A stretch of 64,000 nt of DNA from Chrysoporthe austroafricana (taxonomy: Eukaryota > Ascomycota > Sordariomycetes > Diaporthales > Cryphonectriaceae), in the NCBI GenBank assembly GCA_001051155.2, contig JYIP02000010.1, forward strand, positions 558,001-622,000, in the 5' to 3' direction. Position numbers and translations under genes: made by a program. Below, one piece after another: positions 20,659 to 64,000 of this stretch. The first letter of the stretch is position 1. Each line of letters starts with the position of its first letter. The notes under the pieces are model-generated. The model was given only the letters and a program-made list of their open reading frames with translations, searched no databases and had not been told where the DNA came from.

Positions 20659-21889
20659 TTAGAGTTCCGAGACTGCCTTGCCGGGGTTGGCATTGTGCTG
20701 CTTCTTGCCAGCAGCTCCTTGGTAATCACGGTCCGGCTTGGCATCCAATGGTCTGTCAAGGCCAAGACGATGCGCTGTCGAATATGTCGCGATACCTCCG
20801 TCCGGATCAGCCTCCGTGATTAGCTCCTTGCGCCTGGTGTCCACCAGAAGGCGAATCAGATCGGGACGCATATAATGACCAGCAAAGTCAGCAATGACCT
20901 TAGTCAAATGGGTCTCATTGAGATCGATATCCACAAAAAGTAGCCCATCGAAGTCCTTGTCCGGTTTGACAACCAAGCTGCCGTCCGGGCGATAGATGCG
21001 GGCGTGTCCATTGTACGGGCTCGGGTCGGTCTCCGGTTCCACGCCCTCAGGGGTAGTCTTCTTGAGACCTTCGACACTAAGTCGTTGGAAGGGGGCAAGG
21101 GTCCACGTCCCTGTCTCGTAAGCGTAAGATGGTGTGACCAGGTCAGATGCTGTATCCGCATAGTTCGTGGCGGGATCAGGGGCGACCTGACGCTCAATTC
21201 CTGGATAAACGGGCCATGCTGCGACATGGATCTGTTCCCCGGCAGAAACGTTGAGCGATTTGAGGAAGGGGTTCATGTTTTCCCAGCAATTGAGTTGGCC
21301 CAGGCGTCCAATCCCGGTCTCCGTGACGGAAAGGAATGTATCTCCGGATCCGTCGCCGTAGACAAGCTTTTCGACATGGGTTGGCTTGATCTTACGACGA
21401 TGGTTCACGACGTTGCCCTCGGGATCGATCAAAGCCTGGGCCAGGTAGAGGGTGGCGTGATCAATCTCGGAGAAGCCGAGCGAGACATAAATCTGGTTGT
21501 CACGGGCCGCTCGTCGAATACGGCGAAACTCTTCCGAGTCAACAGGGAGAGAGCTCTCGCGATACTTTTTCAGCATAGGAAGGCTCTGAAGATAGTTCAC
21601 TTTCCACATCCAGTAAGGATACCCAGGAATCCCTGATCTCGAGGTGAGCTGACCGCGGATGGCTTGTTGAGGAGAACTATACACATACAAACTTCGGGAA
21701 AGGCGACCAGCTTGCAGCCCGCTTTGCCTGCTTCATTGATGAAGTTAATTGTCTTCTGTACACTGGCCTCAAGGTCGAACCACTAAAACGGGCGTCAGTG
21801 ACAGGTTTAGCGCAGAAGCTGTGACACGGACGACATACTCCTGGCTCAGAAGTGACGGCGGCTGCTTTGTACTTAGTGATAGGCATCAT
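20659..21889 (-). CDS. Nitrilase / cyanide-hydratase family enzyme
   Basis: Three exons on the minus strand, 21889-21839, 21782-21689 and 21632-20659, with two 56-bp introns; 372 residues. The catalytic Glu-Lys-Cys triad is complete: Glu47 in LVAFPEVWIPGYPYW (restored across the second intron), Lys129 in [11 protein letters not shown] and Cys164 in [11 protein letters not shown]. The following [13 protein letters not shown] is characteristic of the nitrilase branch that includes fungal cyanide hydratases and aliphatic or aromatic nitrilases. It would convert organic nitriles to acids and ammonia, or cyanide to formamide; sequence alone does not separate these. Two adjacent ATGs are possible starts, differing by one Met. 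The Lys/Gln-rich tail after about residue 330 is variable in the family. Genes of this class in accessory regions often serve plant-cyanogen detoxification, which is an inference here. Confidence 0.93.
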
Positions 21890-31505: not shown

Positions 31506-31620
31506 TTATATAAATNGTAGTATTTTTTTTGGGTGGTTTTTTTTTTTTTTTTTTCCTTTTTTTTTTTTTTTTCTTTCTCTTTTTCTTTTTTTCTTTCTCT
31601 TTTTCTTTTCTTCTTTTCAA
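31423..31620. repeat. Poly-T / T-rich low-complexity tract with an ambiguous base
   Basis: Long T runs, one over 55 bases, interrupted by a few C and A, with an n at 31516. Length and base accuracy here are doubtful; sequencing slippage or a gap join is likely. Confidence 0.9.
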
Positions 31621-52059: not shown

Positions 52060-52226
52060 TGTTATGAACCAACGAATGGTTCAAGTCACGGGAACAGGCG
52101 GGGCTAGCGGGCCCAGGGCCAACGCAGTACGGATCCAACATCCGACGCAAGGTACCCGCTTATATAAGGATGTTTGATTATCCCGAATTATATAATCAAA
52201 GGGTTAGGGTTTCCAAGTTACAATTG

Positions 52227-52355
52227 CCAGAATTGCTAAGCGATTGGAACGACTAAGTCGCCAGAATCGCTAAGCGATTGGAACGACTGAATTGCCAGAA
52301 TCGTTAAGCGATTGGAACGATTAAATCGCCAGAATTGCTAAGCGATTCGGAACTG
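52227..52355 (+). repeat. 34-bp tandem repeat within the outer element's LTR region
   Basis: Three full 34-bp units, starting CCAGAATTGCTAAGCGATTG, stand at 52227-52260, 52261-52294 and 52295-52328, with a partial fourth to about 52355. Differences between units are mostly C/T changes. Confidence 0.9.
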
Positions 52356-53079
52356 AAAAGCTAAATATATAAGAACGGATATTTCTTACTGTTAGATAAG
52401 TTTTATAATTGCTTTTTAATTGTCAATTTAAGTATTTTTTTTAAAGATATTATTTCAAAGGAATATCCAATACGGATAGTAAATACTTAACAAATATCGA
52501 ATATTTCCAAAAACTATATTTCCGTATATAAGTTAATTACATTATATACTATCCTTGCCTAATATAAACTATATATTAAATACCTATATTATTCGAATGC
52601 TTATTACATTTTGATAATTCTTGTTCAAGGACTAATTTAGTATTATTTATTTTTAGCAATACGGAAATACGATAGCTCTTCCCATTCCAATACCGTTTTC
52701 CTTTTAACAGATTACGCCCTAGGCTTTGCAAACCCAGATTGCGGCTTTGCAATAGCATATCCAGGAATTTGAGAACTAGGAAGAAAGCTTTCAAGTTGCT
52801 ATTGCCGATAAACTATACAAACTCGATAAGCTTAATATTTACAATAAGGATTAGAAAATTTTCTAAGGATTTATTATTCAGTATAAAGCCTATTTTGCCT
52901 ATTATAATTCCTAGTTTGATACCGAAAAAAAAAAGGTTATTTTTGCGGGTATTTATTTCCAATACGAAACCCTAGCCTAATATAAACCTTTCTTTCGCAA
53001 CTATCTGGATAATTAAAGCAATCTAATGGCATGCAAAACGGAAATAGTTAAGATATTCTCTTATTTTGATAAATTCGAG
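52356..53079. other. AT-rich leader/LTR remainder of the outer element
   Basis: No coding signal; long A/T runs. It probably contains the 3' end of the LTR, the primer-binding site and the gag start, all too mutated to place. Confidence 0.4.
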
Positions 53080-54182: not shown

Positions 54183-54187
54183 ATATG
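54183..54187. repeat. Target-site duplication, left copy (atatg)
   Basis: The five bases atatg directly precede the left LTR of the inner element and match the five bases after the right LTR. Confidence 0.9.
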
Positions 54188-54602
54188 TATTATGAACGCT
54201 GCAGCAGATCCTTAGATGGGCTATAACCTGTTCCCCAAAATACGATTGTTCTCGCTACGGTTCATGACAGAACTCGAAGTCCTGCTTAAATGACTTATAG
54301 CGTTCCAAGTATTCGGTTATACCGATAGTTATCATCGGTCCAATTGATACTTAGATTGACGACTGAAAGTCCTATCTAATTATCTAGCCGATAGTTCTTC
54401 CAGCCTTATATATCCATGTTTTTTTAGTCCTTAGCTTATCGCTGCTTATCGGGGCTTATAGCTGCTTATCGAGCCCCGGTAAGCCCGGTTGAGCTCTGAT
54501 AACGGATTGGGACCGAATGCATTAGAAACGCCGGTACGTATTTTCATTCTCTTGATTTGGCCCTAGGTCGGGGTTTGTCCTTCTGTATGTTAGTTCATAA
54601 TA
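54188..54602 (-). repeat. Inner element LTR, left copy
   Basis: 415 bp, bounded by the imperfect inverted ends TATTATGAAC and GTTCATAATA (the terminal TG/CA mutated to TA/TA). Relative to the right LTR it is collinear and nearly identical, except for 54227-54336 and 54504-54532, where it is the unreversed complement. Confidence 0.92.
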
Positions 54603-55452
54603 TCATCCTTCCTCTATCGGTTATTATCCCTAACAATGCTTTATAAGTATCCTTGTTCGGCAAGTTTCTTATCGCACTTTCCTTATTGAGATATCTTACA
54701 GAATCGGCAAGTTTCATGGTTTTTCGTCTACTCTTTCTTCCAAGAGTCTTGCCCGCCTTAAGCGATTTTCGTTTATCGAGTCTCGAGGGTATGAAATTAT
54801 GCTTTGTTCGCTCTATCTTGAAGAGGGCTTATCGTATCGTATAGTGGATAGGGTTAAGAGTTGTTCTAATTGTACGAAACGGGGGCGTTCTTACGATACT
54901 GGACGGGTTCCGTTATCGTTTTGTAAGCTCCCCTTTTCTTTCTTCTTGCTCTTCTTATTCTTCTTCCTGATCCTGTTATAGTATTACGAGTTACCGATAA
55001 ATTGTCCCGGATTGATAGTTATAAGGTTAAGGAAGAGGGGCGGCTTCTCGAGCTTCAGTCTTGCATAACCGAATCTTTGGCTTATCTTGTACGGCTAAAG
55101 AAATAGCGCTGCTTCTTTTAGGAGAAGGGGATAAAGTTGGTAAATCAAAGTCTGGAAGAGGAAGAGCGTAATCGTATGGCTGTCGAGGTATAGGCGGTAG
55201 TTTCCGAGAAGTTTGCAGCTGCGGTTGCGGATCCTTCTTTTAGTAGTTTTGACTGGAATTCCGTAAATGTAAGTAATTCTGTAATAGACTGGTCTGGTTT
55301 TTTGGGTAAGGCTAATTCCTGTTCTGGATCCGGGCAGTTTTCTTAAGTAATTCGGGTAAATAGAATCTTTATATGCTTATTTTTTTCTGTTATTATTTAT
55401 CCAAGTAATCTGCTAATGCTCGAAGTGCATTTTGTAAGTTGGACTTGGGTTC

Positions 55453-58400
55453 TTACGAATTTTCATTTGCTAGGTAATCTTTCCATTTGATAAGGTATTC
55501 GGGGTCGTAATCTGGTTCGCGGTATCTGAGGATTCGTTCGATTTCGTATTCTGGCTCGTTACTTTCGACTTGAATGTTTTTGTCTGTTTTGATTATTCTT
55601 GGTATTAGTTCGAGGAGCGAGATATGGAATACCGGATGGATTCTCATTCTATGGGATAGCGCGAGTTCGAAATTGATATTTGAGATTTTCCTTAGGATTT
55701 TGAATGGTCCCAATTTCTTGTAATCCAGTGAGTAAGAGGGTTTTATTGTTTTAATATATTCTTTCTGTCAAATAAAGTAGATTTTATCCTTTTCCTGTAA
55801 GATTGGTCTTTCGATCTTTTTGGAATTAGCATATTTCGTCATTCTTTCTTATATGAATTTCAGTTCTTTCTGGAATTCTTTCTAAACTTTCTTGATTTTT
55901 CTGATTCGTCTTTCTGCAGCTTTTGCATTTGCTCCTAGTATCTTGTCGTAATAGGCTGTCGGGTTATAGCTATAGAGTGCGTAAAATGGCAATTTCTTTG
56001 TCGTATTTATATTTGCGTTATTATATGCAAATTGCGCTAGGGGTAAGAAGTCGATTTAGTTATCCTGCTTGTGGTTTACGTAATGTCGTAAATATTGCTT
56101 GACAATCTGGTTGGTTCTTTCCGTTTGTCTGTCTGTTTGTAGATAGAATGCTATAGACATTTTCTATTATATTCCGAGTAGCTTCGTAAGTAAGGTCTAG
56201 AAGTTTGATGCGAACTTTCTGTTTCTATCGGAAATGATTTCTTTGGGCATGCCGTAATTGGCTATAACCGTTCTGAGGAATGTATATGCGAGTTTTTCTG
56301 CTATGCTGCTTTCTTTATATAGTAGGAAGTAAGCGTATTTGCTTAGTTTGCAAACTATTACTAGAATGCTATCGTATTATATTCTAGTTAAGGGTTTTTG
56401 TAAGAGAGGTAGCTTGGTAATAAAGTCCTAGTTAATGGATTGCCAAACTATTTCCGGAACCGGGAATAGTTAGAGCAATCTATAGAGCTTATAATATTCA
56501 ATCTTATTCTTTTTGCAGCTATCGTACTTTCGTAAGATTCTTTCGATTCTTTGTCTGAGCCCTAGTAGGTTCCAGTATTTCTTGATTCTTTCGTAAGTGG
56601 CTTTGATTCCTTGATAATTATATGCTGGTACGCTATATATGGTTTTGATATATTCGTTTTGTTTTTCGGGAGTTATATTTTCAGATTTTCTTTTTTAATT
56701 CTCGATTCTGATAATCGTATTGAGTTCTCTTGCTTCGCTTACAAAATTGCTATCTTTGTTTTGCTTGAAGATATTCTGTAATTCTTTGGGTTCCGTATCC
56801 TAGTAGTCTGCTCGTTTGCTAAGGGTATCTGCTTTGCCATTCTCTGATTTTTTGCAATATATGATTTTTAAGTCGAATTGCGAAAGGAATTCTGCCTATC
56901 TGACTTGTCGTTTATTCAAGACTTTTGTTATTATAAATATTATTAGGTTTTTGTAATCTGAATGTACTATTATTTGGTATTTAGTTCCGATTAAGTAATA
57001 TTGCTATTTTTCGAATGCTTTGACGATTGCCATTAGTTCTTTATCTGGAATGCCGTAATTGAATTCCGGGCCGTTTAACTTTTTTGAGAAGTTGCTTACT
57101 ATCTTGAGATATCCCTGGTTGTCTTGTTAGCTTAGTTGTCCGCTAAGTGCGTAGTCTGATGCGTCGGTTTCGATTTCGAATAGTTTGTCTGGGTTCGTTT
57201 CGCAGAATATGGGTTCTAACGTAATTCGTTCTTTGATTTCGTCGAATGCTTTTCGAGTTTCTTAAGTCCATTCAAATTTGCAATCCTTCTTTGTAAGATT
57301 CGTAAGTGGTCGTGCGATCTTGCTATAATCTCGAATGAATTGCCGATAGAAGTTAGCATAGCCGAGGAATGCTTTGATTTCCTTAATCTTTTCTAGTATA
57401 GGCTATTCTTTTACTGTTTAGACTTTATTTTTCTGCATGCTGATCTGTCCTGGTTTGATAGTATAGCCCAAGTAATCGATTTCTTGTTAGTGGAATTGGC
57501 ATTTGCTTAATTCCATGAGGAATTTGTTATCTTATAATATTCGGAATACTTATCGTATATGCTATTTATATAATGCGAGGTTTTTAGAGTAAATAAGGAT
57601 ATCGTTAAGGTAGACGATAATAATGGTATCCAGGTATTTGCGGAAGACGTCATTAATCATTTTTTGGAAGGATGCGGGCGCGTTAGTTAATCCAAAAGGT
57701 AAGATTACATATTCGAAATGTCCGTAGCAGGTCCTGAATGCTGTTTTCCAAATGTCATCTTCCTTGATCCGGATATAATAGTATCTTTCTTTGAAATCCA
57801 GGGTAGTGAACTATTTTGCTCCTATCAGACGATCTCGTATTTCTCCTATTAATGGCAAGGGATAGCGATTCTTGATTATAATATCGTTAAATTGCCGATA
57901 GTCCATACAAAGTCGTAGTTTGCCGTTTTTCTTTGGAACGAATAGGATTAGGTATCTTGCGAGTAATTATAATTTCCGTATATAGCCTTTCTTGAGGTTT
58001 TCGTCGATATATTCCTTGAATGCTTTGAGTTTTGCTTGATCGAGCTTGTAAATAGGGTAGTTCTGTAGCTTTGTCCCTTCTTTCAGTAGGATCTTATAAT
58101 CAAAGGGGCTATATTCGGGTAAGCCGTTATCGAATTTTCCTTATTATAGTTTTTTGAATTCGTAGTATTCCCGTAATACGTTTTTGAGGTCTGGCAGTAG
58201 TTCTTTTTCGTCTTCTGCGATCTGTAAGAATATAAGGTATCGCTATGCGTATCTTGCTTCGCTAGCTTCTTGTCTTTTGAGCTTTTCTGTTTCTGGTGGT
58301 TTCGGGTATCTGTCGGGTGCTAAGCCGAATTATCTTCTAGCGTATTCGTGCTGTAGGAGCTGTATTTCTTTGTGATTCCATAATTTATATTTTCTTGCGC

Positions 58401-58960
58401 TATTCCGTACTTGACCGAACTTCTGTTAGTCGATAGTCGTTTGTAATCCTGGTCCGTCCCTAACTTTTATCTGGAAGTTCAAGGTAATCGTAATCCTTCC
58501 CTGTATTATGGCTTGCTTTTCTGTTTTAAGGGTATTCGTAAGCCTATTTGAGCGCATTTCACTTATATTGTTCTCAGTAACTAGGTCTCTTTTTCTGCTA
58601 GTAATCGCGACCTTTTTGGTAGGTACGGCTTGTTCCTATAAAATCTGGCTAATAGTCCAATTAATTCGAGGGTTATGCTCTTTAAGCTAAAGTATTCCCA
58701 AGATTAATTCATATTATACTATATTTGTAATATCAAAAGTAATATTTATCGTAAGGCTTTGAATCGAGATAAGTAGATAATCAGTTTCTATATCGATTAT
58801 ATTTAGATTGTACGTAACCGACTTTCTTTTTATAGTATTGAGCTTATAAGAATCTTTCTTTTGCGTCCAGGGAATTCGTTCCCTATTAACGATTTCGGGC
58901 GAGATGAAATTTCCTTATACGCCGCTATCTAGTAATATACTGTATCGTCGTCCTTTGATA
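55453..58960 (-). pseudogene. Inner element pol relic: protease, RT, RNase H, integrase, chromodomain
   Basis: Read on the minus strand from right to left. A protease-like DSG motif lies near 58930, then reverse transcriptase at about 58150-57300, with its catalytic loop at about 57630-57600 reading [12 protein letters not shown] (Asp to Asn in YLDD). RNase H is at about 57250-56830 (LMAIVKAFEK, then a broken ...QYYLIG and SENGKADTLSKR). The integrase region with its Cys/His part and core is at about 56720-55740 (ISDRNRKFAS, then YLQTDRQTERTNQIVKQYLR and FLPLAQFAYNNA). The chromodomain tail is at 55713-55453 (YEIERILRYREPDYDPEYLI). Stops replace Gln or Trp codons throughout, so no full protein can be made. 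Confidence 0.9.
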
Positions 58961-60139
58961 TACATATCTAGAATGATATGCTCTTCGTTTCCTTTAGTAA
59001 TGGCATATAGGGACCTCGTAGTCCTGATCGGCTGTTATCCTATTATAGGCAATCTTTCCTTTTTGGGGTATCCTGGGCGTTCTTTGCTATTTGCTGTGCT
59101 AGCCTTTTTGCTTAAGCATAGCTTCGCTACCGATTCTTCTCGATTTTTTGCAGCCTGTGCCATTCTTTGGCTTTGTTCCGTATATATATAGAGTATGCAA
59201 TCATATAGCATTATCCCTATATAGTTTTTCCATTAATGCATGCTCGTGGGCAGTTATTGGGTAGTCCTATATATGCGTTATTGTTTTCGATATGCAAGAC
59301 TTTCTTATGCTTTCCTTTTTCTTCCGTAACGGAATGGATCAATTGGTCCTATTCCTTAAGCGGAAACCAATCGTATTTAATTTTCTTGCTGAAATGTATC
59401 TGGCAGTTATAGTAAATATAACTAATCCAGGCAAATTCATAATAGCAAAGGTATAAGTAACTGATCTTTCCGTTTTCCTAGGGTAGGCAATTACTATTCT
59501 GGAATAGTATGCCTTGGAAGAATTCTTTTGTTGTAAGCCTATAAATGATATATTCTATTTCCGTATATTTGGTTATCCATTTGTTGCAATTTTGGCAGTT
59601 TTTTTATTAATAGCGGGCTGTTTTTTCTGATAATTTTTCGTCGGGAACTGGAATTAGTAGGTTATCTGGTTATTTGTCGGGATATGCCGATTTTTCGATA
59701 ATAATGCTAGGTATCGGTAATTCCGGTCTTATAATGCTAATTTCCTTTTCTATTATATTGTTCCATTATCGTTCCAGATAATAATTCAAAAGGTATTTTC
59801 CCAAGTCTTCCTTGCTTTGCAAGGGTCTTTCATTAGAGCAATCGGAATCGCTATCCCGGATAATAGTATCGTAAAATAAGCCTTTCTTGCCTATAGCAAA
59901 TTGCCGCTATTTTTAGGGCTTGCGTAAGAATTATCCTAAGCCTTCCTTTTCCGAGAAATGCAGTATGCAATGATCTTGGTAGCAGGCTATCTAGCTGGTA
60001 TTGCTATAATCAAAGTCCGCTGCTTATTTAAATTGGATATTTTTGCCTAGTTAATTGGGTTCCTATCGCTAAGCGACGTTAAGCTATCTTTCTGGGACTA
60101 GCTTCCATTCTCGCTTCTTTTATTCCTATTAATAATTGC
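58961..60139 (-). other. Inner element, region between gag zinc knuckle and protease
   Basis: Part of the element's internal coding sequence, now with many stops and no recognisable domain apart from Cys/His-rich scraps. Confidence 0.4.
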
Positions 60140-61043
60140 GGGCAATATAACCTTTCTTACTACAGTTATAACAAGTAACCCCTTTGCATTATTTGCGTAC
60201 GAGAGTATTTAGTTCTATAGGCTTAGCGTATATAATGCCCGAATAGGCCGTATTATTCTTGCCCTTATGCTGGAATTTGCGCTTCTCAGTATTTGGCTGA
60301 TATTACGGGGAAGTATTATGATTCTTCTGCCGTTATTGCCGTCGTTCGTATAGTCGGTTATCAATGCGGACTGCCTTATTAATAAACTCACTAAGCTTTT
60401 CGGGTCGGTCTTCCTTATAGAGTTCATCCTTGATTTCCTCTTTGAGTCTTGCGTAATAAGTATTTATAAAGGGTTCGTTCTCGTAATCAAGGTAGGTAAC
60501 GATTTGCCGGAATTTCGCCGTATAGTCCGCAGCCGAACCAGTTTATCGAAATGCTTCTAGCTGCCGTATTGCAGTTTGTCGTTTATCCGGATCTCCAAAG
60601 GTTTTAGTAAGAGCTGATTCGAAATTGGCATAGCGCTGGAAGACGCGCTTGGTATTTTCCGAGCGAAGTTTTTCGCTATTATCCAAATAGTTGCGAAAGG
60701 TTGGCTTCCATTACTGGAATGCCGTTCTTTCAAGGCGACTTCCTGCGAAATCGATCTTGTTATAGGTAATCCTAAACTGGGTTCCATAATGCTTGAAATA
60801 GGCCTTGAATTGTATTAAGAAGGCCTGGAAATCTCCCCGAATGCCTTTATACGGGCCGGGCTTGTCAAGCTTGAAAGCCTTGGCTTGCTGAAAGGCGTTA
60901 AAGCGGATGATTTCGTTCTTGATTTCCTCAAGCTGCTAGTATAATATCACATTCTGTTATTGGAGTTGTTCGTTAGTAAGGACGACTGGGACCTTTTCCT
61001 GGAAGGCTTGATTGTTGGATAAGGACGGGGTTTGAGGCGCCAT
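60140..61043 (-). pseudogene. Inner element gag relic
   Basis: It starts at the ATG at 61043 (MAPQTPSLSNNQAF) and reads typical gag helices: QQAKAFKLDKPGPYKGIRGD, FLIQFKAYFKHYGTQF, GSAADYTAKFRQIVTYLDYE and EEIKDELYKEDRPEKLSEF. Near 60190-60150 the former zinc knuckle reads CYNCSKKGYIARNY, with the His and last Cys changed to Tyr. Several TAG stops interrupt the frame. Confidence 0.88.
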
Positions 61044-61105
61044 TATATCCTGAATATTGCTCAAAGGGTATATACTGAACCGATCTTGAATAAGAGTTAT
61101 CAAAA

Positions 61106-61520
61106 TGTTATGAACGCTATAGCAAATCCTTAGATGGGCTGTAAGGACAAGGGGTTTTATGCTAATAAGAGCGATACCAAGTACTGTTTTGAGTTTCAGG
61201 ACGAATTTACTAAGTATCGCAAGGTTTATAAGCCAATATGGCTATCAATAATAGGGTCCAATTGATACTTAGATTGACGATTGAAAGTCTTATCTAATTA
61301 TCTAGCCGATAGTTCTTCCAGCCTTATATATCCATATTTTTTTAGTCCTTGGCTTATTGCTGCTTATCGGGGCTTATGGCTGCTTATCGAGCCCCGGTAA
61401 GCCCGGTTGAGCTCTGATAACCCTAATCCTGGCTTACGTAATCTTTGCGGGGTACGTATTTTCATTCTCTTGATTTGGCCCTAGGTCGGGGTTTGTCTTT
61501 CTGTATGTTAGTTCATAACA
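61106..61520 (-). repeat. Inner element LTR, right copy
   Basis: 415 bp, bounded by TGTTATGAAC and GTTCATAACA. As the element runs on the minus strand, this is its 5' LTR. The blocks 61145-61254 and 61422-61450 are unreversed complements of the matching blocks in the left LTR. Confidence 0.93.
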
Positions 61521-61525
61521 ATATG
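61521..61525. repeat. Target-site duplication, right copy (atatg)
   Basis: Matches 54183-54187. Removing the inner element and one copy of atatg restores the reading frame of the outer element. Confidence 0.9.
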
Positions 61526-64000
61526 CTATTTTTGGACTTATACTTAATGAAATTTTCAAAAATGTTCGGTTTCAAAACGATACTTATAGAAAATACGAAA
61601 ACGAATAAATTAGCATAAGATTATTCTAGCATTACCAGATCGCATAAGTCTCGTACATTTATAATAATTGCAAAGAATATTTTGCAGCCAAAATAGCAAA
61701 TAACTAGTTTCTTTAAAAGGATTAATATTTAGTTATTAAGGCCTATAAAGAACAAAACCTTTATTGCAAAATCAGATTCGACCGAAACGGACATTTTGGC
61801 CTTATCGGACTATTTAGCAACTTTTCTCAAAATTGTTTCGAAAAAAGGGTAAAATAGCAAGAATACCAGATAGAAAACTATAAAATCCATACTAACAAAA
61901 AACTATATGCCTAGTATTAATAAAGGGACTTTGAAAACTATAATAAATAAAGATATATATATAGTACGGAATAAGCTAAAGAATTTGCAAAATAAGTAAC
62001 CCAAAGCCCTGAATAAACCTTAAAGGCCTTAAAAGACGAAAAATGCTTATAATAAAATAGCAAATATTCGGACTTATAAAGTCTTTAAGCTTAGCAATAA
62101 TAGCAGACTAAAAGCATATTAAGATATTTATATAACTTAACAGGCAAATATATAGCATATTCTTAGATAATAGCGTTTAAAGGAATTTCATTTTACTAAA
62201 AATTATCAATTAAGCATGCATTATATAGAAATAAAAAAGGAATCCGTATATATTATATACTATAGAAAGGAAACCGGTTACTTATAATCAAAATATAATT
62301 AATAGAAAAACTAATTATCTATTTATTTCGATTCAAAAATATATAATAAACTTGACTTTCGATATTACGGATATAGCAAAATACGATATAATTATAGGAT
62401 TACTTTAGCTCAAAAAGCATAATTTTCGAATCGATTGGACTACTAGCTAAATCTATTAAGATAATACTATATCCCAGAAAATAATTGCGATCAAAAGCGC
62501 AAAGCGAGATTCAGTTATTAAGAAAAGCTTAATAAAGGGCTTTCAAACGAATATTTATACTATTTCCAAATTAGCAAGGATTAATAGCTTAAAGAAAAAA
62601 ACTATACGATAGTCGAACTCTAAAAAACAGAACGATAGTAAGTTAATATAATAAATAGACAAATGCCAAAACAATTACTTGGCTTAATATAATACAAAAT
62701 ATCGAAAATAAATATTATAAGAAGAGAATTAATAGTTCTTCCTGGATTACGAATAATTTCCGAAAGCCCCGATATATGAGTTATAGAATTATAAGGAAAT
62801 CAATTACGAAAACAAGATAGCAAAACGATATCTTCTATTCTTATAAATAGCGGATACAAAAAAAGAATTAAGGCTAGAATTTAAGAATATATTAAGAGAA
62901 TATTACAAATTCAAAGAAATTTTCAGGCCAAAAAGGGATACGGGATTCTTAGCATACGGTCTATACGATTACGAAATCCTATTCAAACCTAGTATATATT
63001 TAACTTTCGAACCGATTTACGGATTAAATAAAGTACGATTCGAAATTTTCAAAGAATATCTTGATAAGCAATTTAAAAAAGGATTTATACAAAAATCCTA
63101 CTTACTAGCAAAATACTCAATCCTATTTATACCAAAAAAGAATAGCAAATTACAACTTTGCGTAAATTATAAGAAACTTAATAATATTATTATCAAAAAT
63201 CGGTATCTATTATTACTATTAAAAGAATTGCGCGACAGATTTCGTAGCGCAAACTGATTTACGGCATTCGATTTATAAGAAAAATATACGCATATCCGCA
63301 TTAAGGAAGGAAATAAATGGAAAACAGCATTCAAAATACGTTACGGCCATTTTGAGTACTTTATTATGCTATTCGGATTTATTAATATTCCAGCATTCTT
63401 CCAGGAATATATGCATTATATTTTGCAAGGATATTTAAATTGCTTCATTATTATTTATTTTGATAATATCTTAATTTATTCCAAGGATTTCGAAATATAT
63501 AAATACTATATCAGATAAGTATTACAGACTTTCAAAAGCAATAAATTCTTTATTAACGGAAAAAAGAGCCAATTCTATTCGCAAAAAGTCGACTATTTAG
63601 GATATACTATTAAACTAAGCAGAATTAGAATACAAAAAGATAAGGTTAAAGCAGTACGAAAATAGCTATAACTTCAAAATATTACTAGCATTAAATCCTT
63701 TTTCGGATATATTAATTTCTACTGACAATTCATTAAAGGATATGCGGAAATAGCTAGATTATTAATAGAGCTAACCAAGAAAAACAGAATATTCGAATAG
63801 ATAGAAACCTAATAAAAAGCATTTAAAATATTCAAAGAAAAAGTTATTCAAGAACTTATATTATAAGAAGCAAACTTAGCAAAACCATTCGAAATCAATA
63901 CCGATATATTAGCCTATACTATCGGTAACGAACTTATTTAGAAAGATAATTAAGGAAAACTATACCTCGTTATAAACTTTAGTAAAAAACTTAATAGATT
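61526..64000 (+). pseudogene. Outer element pol relic (protease, reverse transcriptase, RNase H start), continues off the window
   Basis: The plus frame resumes from the split gag-pol frame. A retropepsin tail lies at about 62350-62480 (FDITDIAKYDIIIGLLQLKK). Reverse transcriptase runs from about 62990 to 63700: GLNKVRFEIFKEYLDKQFKK, PKKNSKLQLCVNYKKLNNII, FTAFDL then a stop then EKYTHIRIKEGNKW, and the catalytic loop IIYFDNILIYSKD with Asp to Asn. RNase H begins near 63880 (KPFEINTDILAYTI). Stops stand at Gln and Trp positions. Confidence 0.88.

Follow-up and report, generated by a model that had tools for sequence, protein, structure and literature searches.

An exchange of A with T and of C with G, read in the same direction along the strand, has been claimed for DNA of the mitochondrial 16S gene of Kamimuria wangi, in which the 'swinger DNA' lies in normal surroundings and is bounded by sharp switches; the citing paper describes it as the sole exchange detected in DNA so far (PMC4942731). 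An omitted reversal or an omitted complement would also yield this very exchange. Repeated areas are a second relevant setting, and another study names them as gaps that resist closure (PMC3446322). Here we describe the same exchange, with similarly normal surroundings and sharp switches, in the fungus Chrysoporthe austroafricana. In contrast to the Kamimuria wangi case as it is cited, the exchange here forms several short blocks in nuclear long terminal repeats (LTRs), in a family with faulty contig joins. We consider these complement blocks very probably an assembly artefact, not a new copying mode.

The blocks came to light in a window of 64,000 nucleotides (C2:558001–622000) from an assembly of 48,151,211 bases (48.15 Mb) in 22 contigs. 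The element that carries them, at 54188–61520 of the window, is flanked at both ends by ATATG, a 5-bp target-site duplication. An RVT_1 match between its LTRs (C2:615457–615939, minus strand) scored above the cut-off and contained five stops, so the element is a dead, stop-ridden LTR retrotransposon of the RVT_1 type (Ty3/gypsy-like). The transition bias of its divergence suggests that it was inactivated by RIP. In its LTR pair, 5-bp target-site duplication, RVT_1 domain with stops and divergence by transitions, it resembles other RIP-inactivated RVT_1-type LTR retrotransposons, and the two complement blocks are the sole difference that we saw. Its features are as follows, in window coordinates; the internal region is read on the minus strand and the other features have no strand.

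54183–54187, left target-site duplication, ATATG
54188–54602, left LTR, 415 bp, containing both complemented blocks
54227–54336, block 1, same-direction complement of the normal LTR, 110 bp, LTR positions 40–149
54337–54503, normal direct LTR segment separating block 1 from block 2, 167 bp
54504–54532, block 2, same-direction complement, 29 bp, LTR positions 317–345
54603–61105, minus strand, internal region in which no complement block was found, with the RVT_1 match at about 57457–57939 and its five in-frame stops
61106–61520, right LTR, in the form of the other fetched family copies
61145–61254, normal counterpart of block 1
61422–61450, normal counterpart of block 2
61521–61525, right target-site duplication, ATATG

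An array of 34-bp units in tandem lies upstream of the element (52222–52381), and a second retroelement lies at the end of the window, with an RVT_1 match at 63129–63611 (C2:621129–621611, plus strand) and about 65–69% identity to the internal region of the family that bears the blocks.

A first-pass annotation of the window had reported that part of the left LTR complements the right LTR in the same direction, in a register kept to the base. Recomputation bore out both points. The two LTRs align at a constant offset of 6918, and 54227–54336 is the plain complement of 61145–61254 at 102 of 110 positions and identical to it at none; the probability of at least 102 such positions by chance is about 1.6e-51. 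The eight exceptions are all transitions, and in seven of them the right copy has the A/T-type base, also as reported. The annotation had further described the sequences on both sides as ordinary direct copies. This is correct for most LTR positions, but it overlooked block 2, in which 54504–54532 is complementary to 61422–61450 at 28 of 29 positions and identical at 0 of 29. Outside the two blocks the LTRs are direct copies that differ at 13 positions, all by transitions.

One possible explanation for such a pattern is an ordinary process, namely an inversion, a palindrome, gene conversion or a template switch, that mimics a plain complement, and the LTR ends at one of the other loci described below, on contig C12, do resemble inverted repeats. 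However, block 1 matches its counterpart at only 26 of 110 positions as a reverse complement (and at 26 of 110 as a plain reverse) and at 0 of 110 directly, and inversion or conversion cannot yield a same-direction complement. We therefore dismissed inversion, palindrome and gene conversion, the first and last of which the annotation had already excluded, and regard an ordinary process of any of these kinds as next to impossible.

Which of the two forms other copies carry, a question raised by the annotation, was answered by searching the genome. Block 1 as written had one match, itself, whereas its plain complement matched 29 of 29 loci (L002–L030, the right LTR of the window among them). With the whole left LTR as the query, the other listed places matched LTR positions 1–39 and stretches within 150–416, but not across block 1 (40 of 144 candidates scored). 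These results indicate that the left LTR is the altered copy. The same counts led us to dismiss the right LTR as the odd one, and the single match of block 1 gave no support to an inherited family variant shared with other copies.

The two blocks are not alone. When the 48.15-Mb genome was searched with two LTRs as plain complements, the total rose to six blocks, spread over four contigs and five LTRs of one superfamily. A third block (C19:279709–279797, in L044) was found by a plain-complement search among 21 sequences. These total 244,861 bp, and the search could test 180,282 bp of them, for which the sample contained a further copy. The genome search with the right LTR as its plain complement yielded C19:199918–200000 and C1:5571369–5571443, and a related LTR, L050, used in the same way, yielded C12:3434260–3434333. 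The six blocks occupy LTR positions 40–149, 317–345, 281–369, 123–206, 275–349 and, in the numbering of L050, 13–86. Their edges vary between LTRs, and three of the extents overlap, around positions 275–369. No block turned up in the internal DNA tested. Setting aside the hits of the window and L044 blocks left 40 of 284 plain-complement hits, all of them 32–44 bp long and from one pyrimidine-rich near-mirror tract, and a 600-bp piece of the internal region, searched as its plain complement, had no match in the genome. Outside the LTRs of the superfamily, a piece of a DDE_1 element of unmeasured copy number, the sole other repeat searched, yielded no block. Copia elements were considered as a second family; they gave 15 RVT_2 matches, and the single region fetched had no LTR pair.

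The LTRs of this superfamily are also places where the assembly was badly joined. A single N lies inside four of the 42 fetched LTRs (two for each of the 21 sequences, incomplete ones counted). Some scaffolders mark contig overlaps that they did not merge with a single N. The repeats that flank the four Ns, of 103, 121, 102 and 85 bp with 1, 1, 1 and 0 mismatches, are contig ends that overlap yet were left unmerged, and contigs C1 and C10 terminate within LTRs. Two block edges coincide, to the base, with contig edges at such N joins. The end of block 2, at LTR position 345, is the end of the contig that precedes the N in L043, and the start of the L044 block, at position 281, is the start of the contig that follows the N in L036. 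Two coincidences among six well-defined edges had a simulated chance of 0.0013, in a comparison made post hoc. An N stands near a block at one of the five loci, the one on C12; no N was found within the window element, in the L044 region (9 kb) or in the stretches of 1.4 and 1.2 kb around the blocks in L052 and L053. In their clustering in contig-breaking repeats, their single-N joins and their unmerged overlaps, these faults are like the known gap-filling and scaffolding errors that repeats cause in short-read drafts. Two further LTRs (L042:7601–7863 and L048:566–845) lack about 130–150 bp between LTR position 152 or 171 and position 300 or 303, possibly through repeat collapse at a join. Single Ns also occur in homopolymer-type tracts, at 31516 of the window (long and T-rich) and at L049:7279 (poly-A).

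The C12 locus gives the closest view of how a block relates to a join. Reading the minus strand downward from C12:3434900, the LTR starts with TGTTATGAACGC and then passes into the complemented stretch (L054, L056). Aligned as a plain complement, the stretch agrees with other LTRs over as many as 87 columns. It is an exact mirror, at 94 of 94 positions, of an ordinary arm further along the same locus (about C12:3.434 Mb). The single N lies 240 bp beyond the end of the stretch, and the arm is present on both sides of the N (99 of 99). Reversing the 86 bases that directly follow the N gives, without a mismatch, the opening 86 bases of the stretch. This is the output expected of a filler that reverses the sequence of a contig edge without complementing it.

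Three observations together favour an artefact of assembly: blocks recur in five LTRs and differ in their edges, contigs were badly joined in the same LTR family, and the C12 block is an exact mirror near an N. Counting against it are the absence of an N near the blocks at four of the five loci, in the stretches inspected, and the failure to find blocks beyond the LTRs of this superfamily. Under this explanation, the LTRs of a multicopy retrotransposon superfamily would have broken the assembly, and a joining or gap-filling step would have inserted LTR pieces of 29–110 bp that had been reversed yet left uncomplemented. The pieces were probably reads or extensions off the opposite strand, as a read of the reverse-complement strand that was only reversed would give a plain complement in exact register. 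The responsible step would then lie in software, and the DNA of the cell would carry an ordinary LTR at each of the block sites. Such an artefact would account for the type of exchange and its register, for the C12 mirror and the edge coincidences, and for the recurrence of blocks, which in the sequences tested were confined to contig-breaking LTRs. What sets the case apart from known gap-filling errors is the reversed but uncomplemented filler itself; among titles and the opening parts of abstracts, we found no published account of a tool that writes it.

It is also conceivable, although highly improbable, that the change was made after gap filling, during file processing such as the re-orientation of a scaffold piece or manual finishing. 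The change amounts to a reverse complement of which half was forgotten, and each contig piece was joined on its own, as is evident from the N joins and the C12 mirror. An error applied to a whole piece would, however, probably affect longer stretches and unique DNA, whereas the blocks measure 29–110 bp and lie within LTRs, with the qualification that unique DNA is invisible to this test.

A biological origin would require that, while an LTR was being reverse-transcribed or repaired, a polymerase switched to the A–T and C–G exchange and back, and that the blocks then escaped RIP. The exact register and sharp edges of the blocks, their recurrence in the LTRs of one superfamily only and the precedent claimed for Kamimuria wangi (PMC4942731) are all consistent with such a switch. 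Against it stand the faulty joins in the same LTR family, the exact mirror near an N at C12 and the want of an established mechanism, and we judge it very unlikely; none of the observations calls for it. The broader proposal that the LTRs of one superfamily repeatedly gain real complement blocks of 30–110 bp through synthesis or repair in an exchange mode, the blocks then escaping RIP as unmatched DNA, seems to us a long shot.

To compare the blocks with other copies base by base, we tabulated the alleles of 26 LTR rows, leaving out those with N, deletions or truncation, those at contig ends and those of a subfamily of about 80% identity. Turned back to the normal orientation, the two window blocks and the L044 block show no private base in this table; ordinary rows also lack private bases in 18 of 24 cases in the columns of blocks 1 and 2 and in 14 of 24 cases in the L044 columns. 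The L044 block turned back is identical to the copy at the end of contig C1 (89 of 89), and six of the 24 ordinary copies likewise have an exact twin over LTR positions 281–369. Block 1 agrees with the same contig-end copy over 76 bases with zero mismatches. The absence of private bases and the L044 twin weakly support an artefact.

The altered LTRs carry the derived A/T allele at one of 13 differences from their mates within blocks, turned back, but at 20 of 40 in the flanks (Fisher test, p = 0.008 for the pooled data and 0.33 and 0.10 for the two sets on their own). Since the blocks hold fewer derived alleles than the flanks of their own LTRs, they are probably more than flipped reads of those LTRs, and a filler would probably have been drawn from other LTR copies. 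The low derived load fits either such a filler or a real block that escaped RIP, as an exchange by a polymerase would predict. These two readings of the alleles are inseparable here because mates are barely more alike than non-mates (shared minority alleles, 42 of 206 versus 1456 of 7776).

The orientation of RIP-context changes bears on the order of events. In block 1 and the four blocks of the other LTRs, six G:C-to-A:T changes are in RIP context in the normal orientation only and three in the displayed orientation only; the L053 block contributes four to the former and none to the latter. These counts, small as they are, weakly favour RIP preceding the complement event, which counters reverse transcription as the source of a polymerase switch. 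The single left-specific change in block 1, at 54296, points the other way, in that only the displayed orientation places it in canonical RIP context; however, the same allele occurs in seven of the 24 other rows. Dating the complement event from RIP alleles is only suggestive. The first-pass annotation had read the seven A/T-type bases as RIP after the event, which these data do not sustain: all seven are in the right copy, which is normal and could have undergone RIP with or without a complement event, and the six-to-three count gives the displayed orientation no advantage over the normal one. As for the three candidates that it had named, the data-processing artefact is now favoured by the recurrence, the bad joins and the C12 mirror, whereas an unknown template process in reverse transcription is weakened by the L053 changes, few though they are.

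Blocks of this kind can go unnoticed in public assemblies, as an ordinary homology search reads a same-direction complement as unrelated DNA, and artefactual ones could pass for 'swinger' replication. The present case suggests a route to swinger-like sequence without new chemistry, and a plain-complement self-search would be a cheap quality test for draft genomes. Real blocks, by comparison, would overturn the view that polymerases copy antiparallel complements only.

Elsewhere in the window, a gene for a cyanide hydratase-like nitrilase lies on the minus strand at 20659–21732. In a protein search it had up to 93% identity to unnamed database proteins, and its closest named hits were from Diaporthe (Diaporthe helianthi cyanide hydratase, 90%), Colletotrichum and Fusarium, all three of which are Sordariomycetes.
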